DNA of 64,000 bases. Source: Shouchella clausii (GTDB taxonomy: Bacteria > Bacillota > Bacilli > Bacillales > Bacillaceae_D). A program made the translations under genes and the position numbers. Positions 21,811-37,232 of this stretch are shown here, in pieces. The stretch is taken from assembly GCF_002250115.1 (NCBI RefSeq), contig NZ_CP019985.1, positions 2,976,001-3,040,000 of the forward strand, in the 5' to 3' direction. Positions within the stretch are counted from its first letter, which is position 1; each line of letters begins with the position of its first letter. The notes beneath the pieces were generated by a model that saw only the letters and a program-made list of their open reading frames with translations, did not search any database and was not told the origin of the DNA.

Positions 21811-21839
21811 TTGACAATCTTTTTAATGTCCTGTATAGT
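21811..21839 (+). promoter_or_regulatory. Promoter of the tRNA unit
   Basis: TTGACA (21811-21816) and TATAGT (21834-21839) have 17-base spacing, a strong sigma-A promoter. Confidence 0.85.
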
Positions 21840-21907: not shown

Positions 21908-21938
21908 GCGGGTGTAGTGTAGTGTTAAAACCTCAGCC
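21908..21938 (+). pseudogene. tRNA-Gly 5' half, copy 1 (truncated)
   Basis: These 31 bases match the first 31 of the intact tRNA-Gly at 22217 with two changes (T to G at position 12, G to T at 18). The match stops in the anticodon loop, between tRNA positions 32 and 33. There is no 3' half, so it cannot form a tRNA. Confidence 0.85.
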
Positions 21939-22039
21939 ACGAGCGACACATCCGTGAAAAACCATCGAGTTGCCTCGACGCATAATCCTCATCGAATAAG
22001 CAGGTAGAGGAAGAGGCATGTTGTTCGGTGCTCGAAAAA
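21939..22039 (+). repeat. Element C, copy 1, joined to the tRNA-Gly half
   Basis: A ~100-base element closed by CGAGC/GCTCG. Conserved blocks shared with copy 2 are ACGAGCGACACATCCGTGAA, CGAGTTGCCTCGACGCATAA, AGAGGAAGAGGCATG and CGGTGCTCGAAA; the bases between the blocks differ. There is no coding frame. The whole unit (tRNA half plus element plus A/T tail) is 154 bases. Confidence 0.7.
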
Positions 22040-22061
22040 TGAGGAAAGTAATATTAAAAAT

Positions 22062-22092
22062 GCGGGTGTAGTTTAGTGGTAAAACCTCAGCC
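22062..22092 (+). pseudogene. tRNA-Gly 5' half, copy 2 (truncated)
   Basis: Identical over 31 bases to the 5' half of the intact tRNA-Gly and cut at the same anticodon-loop point. It starts 154 bases after copy 1 and 155 bases before the intact gene. Confidence 0.88.
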
Positions 22093-22191
22093 ACGAGCGA
22101 CACATCCGTGAATAGACTCCGAGTTGCCTCGACGCATAAGCATCATCGAGTAAGCAAACAGAGGAAGAGGCATGAAGTGCGGTGCTCGAAA
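22093..22191 (+). repeat. Element C, copy 2
   Basis: Second copy of the ~100-base element. It is roughly 80% alike to copy 1, with differences confined to spacers between the conserved blocks. Internal pairings include CGAG-TTGC-CTCG and GCCTC with GAGGC. An A/T-rich tail leads into the intact tRNA-Gly. Confidence 0.7.
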
Positions 22192-22216
22192 TAAAAAATA
22201 GCTTAATTTTAAATGT

Positions 22217-22290
22217 GCGGGTGTAGTTTAGTGGTAAAACCTCAGCCTTCCAAGCTGATGATGAGGGTTCGATTCCCTTCACCCGCTCCA
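22217..22290 (+). tRNA. tRNA-Gly (UCC)
   Basis: 74 bases including encoded CCA. The acceptor stem GCGGGTG/CACCCGC, the anticodon loop CTTCCAA and the T loop GGTTCGATTCC are intact. Confidence 0.97.
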
Positions 22291-22295
22291 ATCAT

Positions 22296-22372
<77 letters not shown>

Positions 22373-36948: not shown

Positions 36949-36958
36949 TCACGATAAC

Positions 36959-37232
36959 ACGATGAAGAGGAAAGTAATTTTTGCTTTATCTACAGAGAGC
37001 CGTTGGTTGCTGGAAAACGGTGTTAAAGCTTAAATGAAACTCACCTCTGAGTGCGTCTCTGAACATTGTAGTAAGAGCGCCGGATGCTGTGAAGGCATTC
37101 GTTATAAAAACTGCGAGCTAGATTACGGCTTGCTTGAGGCTAACCATTGTTAGCGAAAAAGGGTGGTACCGCGTGAAGACTTTCTCGCCCCTTGCTGGAT
37201 CTCAGCATGGGCGCGCAGAAAGTCTTTTTTGT
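36959..37232 (+). promoter_or_regulatory. Leucine T-box riboswitch with terminator
   Basis: Stem I carries AGAGAGCCG at ~36995, and the specifier codon CTC (leucine, 37040-37042) is followed by ACC. The T-box sequence AGGGTGGTACCGCG lies at 37160-37173. The terminator stem AAGACTTTCT (37176-37185) pairs with AGAAAGTCTT (37217-37226) before a T run. Uncharged tRNA-Leu should favour antitermination into ilvB-leuD. Confidence 0.95.

Follow-up and report, generated by a model that had tools for sequence, protein, structure and literature searches.

Short structured elements behind 5' fragments of tRNA genes in the Bacillales: possible mobile cassettes

INTRODUCTION

Why should the first half of a tRNA gene be repeated in front of the complete gene? 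The question is raised by a locus in the window (the whole 64,000-nucleotide stretch of Shouchella clausii DNA that was analysed), where two 5' halves of tRNA-Gly(UCC), each followed by a conserved element, precede the intact gene. A preliminary description of the letters had offered an RNA and a mobile element as explanations, and had attached a test to each: conserved blocks and covarying pairs in many genomes for the RNA, and variable copy number at the same tRNA-Gly for the mobile element. Both tests are positive. The observation in the window holds up, and similar units prove to be widespread. What the units are is a more delicate matter. The reading developed below, to which we assign about an even chance, is that they are small, structured, non-autonomous mobile cassettes lodged in tRNA 5' halves. 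It is favoured over the reading as a functional RNA linked to tRNA; both can be true.

THE tRNA-Gly LOCUS OF SHOUCHELLA CLAUSII

The element itself is referred to as family 1, and R1 is a covariance model of this element alone, made from 29 copies. The features of the locus are as follows (window coordinates, strand, description).

21811..21839, +, promoter-like TTGACA-17-TATAGT, 5' of the array (11 of 12 consensus positions; consensus match only)
21908..21938, +, 5' prefix of tRNA-Gly(UCC), first copy (two changes relative to the gene; 3' end AGCC)
21939..22018, +, family 1 element, first copy, ACGAGC...GAGGCA (R1 E-value 2.7e-23; outside the 29 sequences of the model)
22019..22061, +, variable spacer, leader of the second unit (70% identity to the second spacer)
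22062..22092, +, 5' prefix of tRNA-Gly(UCC), second copy (same sequence as the gene)
22093..22172, +, family 1 element, second copy (R1 E-value 1.7e-23; among the 29 sequences of the model)
22125..22130, +, 5' strand of helix P1 (UGCCUC), second copy (partner 22167-22172; covarying pairs, 136 distinct rows)
22167..22172, +, 3' strand of helix P1 (GAGGCA), second copy (covarying pairs)
22173..22216, +, variable spacer, leader of the intact tRNA (from the spacer identity comparison)
22217..22290, +, intact tRNA-Gly(UCC) (ARAGORN; Rfam, 74.6 bits)
22296..22372, +, tRNA-Arg(UCU), next gene of the cluster (ARAGORN; Rfam)

Much of the preliminary description holds. The two halves and the intact gene lie where it had put them, spaced by 154 and 155 nucleotides, and sequence comparison confirms two changes in the far half and none in the near half, relative to the gene. 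The halves are 31 nucleotides long and end between nucleotides 31 and 32 of the gene, which agrees with its cut between standard tRNA positions 32 and 33. The promoter that it placed ahead of the array exists as a candidate. Its figure of about 20% difference between the two elements is right for element plus spacer together and wrong for the element alone: compared unit against unit, the element is 86% identical, the spacer 70% and the tRNA half 94%. The closing helix CGAGC/GCTCG, by which it had defined the element, has to be given up. GCTCG lies in the variable spacer, and across 150 copies the conserved unit ends in GRRRCA. The 3' boundary given above was set from the junctions and the alignment of these 150 copies; the R1 match to the first copy (genome 2997939-2998021, window 21939-22021) covers the element plus 3 nucleotides.

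At its gathering score, Rfam 15 finds tRNA in the window array and no other family, and at a relaxed E-value it adds merely tRNA-like and chance matches. The sole open reading frame of at least 60 amino acids over the array (22073-22291, minus strand) crosses prefix, element and tRNA. T-box leaders are likewise structured RNAs tied to tRNA biology in Bacillales. They can be set aside here: RF00230 has no match at the array, and the only T-box leader in the window, at 36953-37195 and unrelated to the array, is 14.7 kb away.

A STRUCTURED ELEMENT

The body of family 1 is about 65-85 nucleotides long (about 80 in the window) and runs from ACGAGC to GRRRCA: ACGAGC-loop-CGAGU comes first, and UGYYYC-loop-GRRRCA adjoins it. 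With conserved stems A-C-[G.A/A.G]-G/C-U and UGYYYC/GRRRCA, the body is modelled as two abutting hairpins, P0 and P1. Both loops contain the motif C[A/U]UC-nnn-GAAUAAGC or, in DNA letters, C[A/T]TC-nnn-GAATA-nGC; in the fMet copies of the genus of the window the first loop has shrunk to a few bases. Extra copies of the loop motif occur between the element and the next prefix in tRNA-Lys arrays (among them L235, L098, L097 and L086), for example GCATCGTCCGTAAGC and ATCATGAATAAGC in the L235 spacer, as if they were a repeated binding site.

The conserved stems carry the compensatory base changes expected of a structured noncoding RNA. Among 136 distinct rows, bases pair in 99.4% of 1,223 cells, both partners have changed in five of nine pairs, and the covariation score was reached by none of 500 shuffles. 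The two apical loops contain no convincing helix covariation. Single-sequence folds of the element are not unusually stable (z -0.43 and -0.98).

What might a structured RNA be doing in front of a tRNA? Prefix and element together might be maintained as a functional RNA or as a cis-acting leader of the downstream tRNA. The unit could, for example, be a decoy 5' half that affects tRNA folding or maturation, or it could offer the GAAUAAGC loops to a binding protein. We regard this as possible but somewhat doubtful. Covarying stems, which recur in a second, related family described below, argue for it, and the unremarkable fold stability argues against it.

DISTRIBUTION

R1 finds 14 strong copies in the source genome, where a search with one unit had found a second tRNA-Gly array, and where arrays before tRNA-fMet repeat just the first 14 or so nucleotides of the tRNA. 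Wider searches give matches in 30 of 41 genomes of the taxonomic family, and of the 299 genomes sampled from the order 138, belonging to 71 of 116 genera, have at least one. Copy counts are lower bounds because only the best candidates of each genome were scored, 111 in the family search and 15 in the order and phylum searches. Genera among the matches listed (118 stretches) include Shouchella, Geobacillus, Anoxybacillus, Parageobacillus, Halalkalibacter, Evansella and Cytobacillus. The covariance search proposed in the preliminary description thus shows the element in many genomes, its blocks conserved and its paired bases covarying. On the other side, 161 of the 299 genomes of the order have no match and presence varies within a genus, which speaks against a maintained RNA.

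Among 299 genomes of the phylum R1 matches three, namely the source genome and two weak ones. Phage records have no match at E 0.01; five viral contigs carry the element, every one of them inside a tRNA cluster, and three plasmid records carry it, each with tRNA clusters. One array, L115, holds eight copies before tRNA-Phe at a strict 155-nucleotide period, seven of them with equal model scores, and is probably a recent tandem expansion. Open full-text literature, which leaves most subscription journals and all bioRxiv preprints outside its coverage, contained no description of these units that we could find.

PLACEMENT WITHIN tRNA GENES

The loci yielded 299 family 1 copies with distinct surroundings, often several per genome and hence not independent. 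When these were compared with a library of 656 tRNA sequences, a tRNA prefix could be read in front of 237; among the other 62, 15 lie in intergenic repeats and most of the rest look decayed. What comes after the prefix? In 228 cases a tRNA of that type comes next, in eight the locus ends first, and in one (L141) the start that follows is broken. In other words, a same-type tRNA lies downstream on the same strand in 228 of the 229 readable copies that have room for one.

The junction itself was studied in 223 copies with a clear element start (Gly 91, Met/fMet 45, Lys 38, Thr 14, Asn 12, Arg 8, Phe 5, Val 4, Asp 3, Ala 3). The length of the prefix varies with the tRNA, from 12 to 31 nucleotides over the ten types, and one tRNA may be used at several sites (Lys at 12, 17, 24 and 26; Gly at 12 and 31). 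A cut point of this kind is not special to tRNA-Gly. The earlier suggestion of a non-autonomous element at the anticodon loop comes close to our best reading but is too narrow, since family 1 also occupies the D-loop, the D-stem and position 26.

The sites share a simple rule. The element starts directly after AGNN: AG stands at -4/-3 in all 22 tRNA-by-position classes and in all 31 distinct site contexts, while 12.1% of positions in the same tRNAs qualify (binomial about 7e-21 for 22 of 22). By copy the figures are 221 of 223 in the junction set and 233 of 237 in the library test. AGNN-type sites number 3.5 per tRNA in the 5' half and 2.2 in the 3' half, and the 3'-half sites are used by none of the 223 copies.

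A further clue is found on the far side of the element, where the tRNA often continues exactly where it had stopped. It does so for at least 3 nucleotides in 84 of the 223 copies and for at least 4 in 46, against 0.6% and 0.4% when another tRNA is used as a control and 4.6% and 0.9% with a shifted frame. The resumed bases are, for instance, GGTAGAGC in Lys, CAACTGAC in Thr, GAGGAC in Phe and GTTAAC in Asp. The resumed run is at most 10 nucleotides, apart from 19 in L108, and no bases are repeated, which means no target duplication. This indicates that the element was inserted precisely into a copy of the tRNA whose 3' part has since been lost. Such an insertion fits better than the earlier proposal of an element that brings the 5' half with it and restores it. 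At position 31 of Gly, the site used in the window, at least 4 nucleotides resume in just one of 90 copies, so for that site the argument depends on what the other tRNAs show.

Precise insertion inside a tRNA, anticodon loop included, is also what tRNA introns (group I and the archaeal type) show. An intron is rejected here, as the 3' part of the tRNA is lost: among 315 copies none has a clear T-arm past the element, and L049 has one doubtful remnant.

A SECOND FAMILY

A search for repeated tRNA starts without family 1 gave 44 matches, 34 of them from one false tRNA call. Seven of the remaining ten carry a different, alignable element, and these seven sequences make up a second covariance model, R2. 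Eight of its nine pairs change on both sides in the seven sequences, and all nine do so in 60 distinct rows of an alignment that was fitted to the model. R2 is absent from the source genome and present in 105 of 299 genomes of the order. In the phylum set it matches three of 299 genomes, one of the same order and two weakly. These two, and the two weak R1 matches outside the order, are taken as chance, L074 excepted; none of the four loci has a tRNA call. L074 (same class, other order) is a tandem repeat with a P0-like piece, ACGAGCGTTACATC...CTTCGAG, and no tRNA nearby, and is possibly a distant relative outside the order. Rfam 15 has no gathering-score match to either family in the window and ten further loci in which both are represented.

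Family 2 has 64 distinct placements (loci L105, L107, L116, L129, L137, L200 and L298-L327). A tRNA prefix is readable in 53, and 52 of these end in AGCA, a site common to both families. They are followed by a same-type tRNA in 47 cases, by the end of the locus in three and by a broken tRNA-Arg in three (the units of L302), which gives 47 of 50 copies with room downstream. No readable copy of either family has a different tRNA coming first. By eye the tRNA often resumes past the element here as well (Asn ATCGGCTGTT, Phe GAGGACT). R2 also matches family 1 copies weakly (25.7 bits in L104), and it is therefore probable that families 1 and 2 form one superfamily. Three copies before the tRNA-fMet prefix at L306 look like hybrids, with a family 1 start and a family 2-like end.

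How does a maintained RNA fare with these results? It would readily account for units that sit upstream of, and on the same strand as, a same-type tRNA in 228 of 229 and 47 of 50 copies, and for the use of the AGCA site by both families. The occurrence of the element in intergenic repeats as well (see below) counts against it.

PREFIXES, SPACERS AND ARRAYS

The prefix is free of mismatches in 179 of 238 copies and tightest near the junction; detection allowed at most 2 mismatches in 12 nucleotides, a limit that favours intact prefixes, so decayed ones are under-counted. Nine adjacent pairs with equal prefix length (plus or minus 1) have spacers that are 57-80% identical and prefixes that are 85-100% identical, five of them at 100%; six further pairs that mix sites 15-17 and 26 were set aside. 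To judge from these sequences, arrays that keep their prefixes beside diverged spacers look like constraint. The many intact prefixes, tightest at the junction, are another argument for a maintained RNA. A further one is that the fMet prefix has just 14 nucleotides, arguably too few for gene conversion. However, the loosest positions are tRNA nucleotides 1-3 (13, 9 and 10 mismatches of 238), and this argues against acceptor-stem pairing or mimicry.

The number of units is variable. Eight genomes of the genus, that of the window among them, can be compared at the orthologous Gly-Arg locus, where they have 0, 0, 0, 0, 1, 2, 2 and 3 units, one unit of the three being decayed. The copy number at this tRNA-Gly therefore does vary from 0 to 3, which makes the mobile-element test positive at the level of related species. 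The Arg-Pro-Gly-Ile locus is empty in two of five genomes.

Does each tRNA have its own kind of element? Where a genome has at least two target tRNAs (17 genomes, 71 elements), elements at other tRNAs of the same genome are on average 77% identical, and identity to other genomes is about 73% at the same tRNA and 72% at other tRNAs. The element is therefore not, or hardly, specialised by tRNA, and that its sequence barely follows tRNA type is another point against a maintained RNA. The nearest neighbour is at the same tRNA of another genome for 48 of 115 elements, at another tRNA of the same genome for 11, and neither for 56.

The arrays also bear on site-specific integration. A recombinase would use the tRNA prefix as an att core, and the unit would be a tiny circle that restores the tRNA on entry. 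A passage of PMC9897764 describes a partial and a complete tRNA copy at the ends of an integrated island, and the same arrangement flanks each unit here. Successive leaders are mostly unlike, as if borne by the unit (the match between successive prefixes is under 10 nucleotides in 118 of 174 arrays), and the prefix is most conserved at the junction. We nevertheless consider this improbable. Exchange at an att site does not predict that the tRNA resumes past the element; cores of 12 to 31 nucleotides have AGNN in common and no common core; 80 nucleotides are too few for an integrase; the element also occurs in repeats that are not tRNA; and about a third of the arrays do repeat at least 10 nucleotides of leader. 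That the units are ordinary relics, old tandem duplications of tRNA starts decayed round a once-mobile sequence with no present activity, is very improbable: decayed prefixes and truncated elements exist (62 of 299 unreadable, 15 repeat copies included) and near-identical arrays need nothing beyond tandem duplication, but the covariation, the well-kept prefixes despite diverged spacers, the sharp AGNN rule and the wide spread all speak against it.

TARGETS OTHER THAN tRNA

Intergenic repeats of palindromic appearance, judged by eye, contain fifteen of the 299 family 1 copies, once again after AGNN, and no duplicated prefix is seen at any of them. In one genome the empty repeat CCAGCG^GGAAAAGC can be compared with a filled one, CCAGCG-(element)-GGAA, after which part of the repeat is missing. 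Nested copies occur too: L152 has an element in the remainder of another element, and L108 has two elements in one tRNA-Gly copy.

Repeat-borne copies are found at L136, L142, L154, L193, L195, L226, L227 and L249. They belong with an abundant palindromic-looking intergenic repeat, GGCGGCGACTCCAGCG...CGTCCGCC (L250-L279, Evansella vedderi), which gives 158 pattern matches with at most one mismatch in one genome. This repeat is modular and hosts the tRNA element together with other inserts.

COMPARISON WITH KNOWN SYSTEMS

IS200/IS605 elements insert without target duplication after a short fixed sequence. Miniature elements derived from them, including PATEs, and REP/RAYT are likewise short, hairpin-rich and thought to be non-autonomous mobile sequences. 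Family 1 differs from both in its target (AGNN, in tRNA 5' halves) and in having no consistent Y1 transposase partner. REP sequences have a GTAG or CGTC tag at one end, as a section of PMC3733652 describes, and neither tag is present in the consensus of 150 aligned family 1 copies. A MITE does not match either: family 1 has neither a target-site duplication nor terminal inverted repeats; in the alignment its ends ACGAGC and GRRRCA are, by eye, not inverted copies.

Genomic islands and phages in tRNA genes offer another comparison. Islands resemble the units in being flanked by one partial and one complete tRNA, an arrangement seen here in 228 of the 229 readable family 1 copies with room downstream. 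However, islands measure many kb and family 1 measures 80 nucleotides, without an integrase and in tandem copies. Moreover, tRNA-integrated islands usually repeat the 3' part of the tRNA, whereas family 1 units repeat the 5' part. The rtT repeats of E. coli tyrT are also tandem, each with a piece of the adjacent tRNA, and belong to the same operon. They repeat the 3' end of the tRNA and lie downstream of it, whereas here the 5' part is repeated upstream, at many tRNAs and in many genera.

MOBILE CASSETTE OR MAINTAINED RNA

Several features of the sequences point towards mobile cassettes: a target rule, many different targets, repeats as targets, nested insertions, a variable number of units and little specialisation by tRNA. 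How might such a cassette work? An enzyme would paste a single-stranded hairpin form, DNA or RNA, after AGNN into sense-strand loops of structured targets. Within tRNA genes, an insertion would last if an intact tRNA came directly after it, either because a single event would both insert the element and duplicate leader and prefix, or because survival would be limited to products with an intact downstream tRNA. Tandem duplication would then multiply the unit. From the layout one would expect the units to be transcribed with the tRNA operon and the upstream ones to be released by RNase P. The best reading of the persistence of the cassettes is that they are tolerated because an intact tRNA remains downstream.

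One difficulty is the machinery. No mobilising gene was found. Within the taxonomic family, 22 of 30 genomes with the element and four of 11 without it have Y1 transposases (PF01797), and the element-rich genomes G011, G031, G022 and G021 have none. No autonomous version was recognised in 1.4 Mb of partly overlapping loci. Five lone left halves of the element exist, of which that at L028 has a right half 410 bases on.

A second difficulty is that no insertion was caught in the act, and every comparison of intact with filled sites could equally be a loss. A third concerns what insertion ought to leave behind. Insertion in redundant tRNA genes should yield interrupted tRNAs without a good copy, and among readable prefixes with room downstream such cases are confined to L141 (one of 229, family 1) and L302 (three units at one locus, of 50, family 2). 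Even at these the start of the same tRNA does come next, but broken; in both it is a tRNA-Arg, so an array can persist after its tRNA has been broken. A search for guide pairing, in which the GCU of the element loops would recognise the target AGNN, gave no loop base whose changes clearly track the target. This, the constraint-like prefixes, the nearest neighbours at the same tRNA and the one resumed copy in 90 at Gly position 31 all count against mobility.

IMPLICATIONS

A broader proposal can be put forward tentatively, with less confidence than the cassette reading itself. A superfamily of structured RNAs, comprising at least two families, may be moving from tRNA to tRNA across the Bacillales by a process that reads AGNN in sense-strand loops. 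It would be a hairpin- or RNA-targeted cassette, possibly domesticated as a tRNA-linked regulatory RNA. Whatever its nature, two structured families without an Rfam 15 match stand in the leaders of essential tRNA genes of a well-studied order, family 1 in about half and family 2 in a third of the sampled genomes, and two covariance models are ready for annotation pipelines. If the units are mobile, they would follow a precise insertion rule inside tRNA genes without killing the host. If they are functional, they would add a new layer of tRNA gene control.
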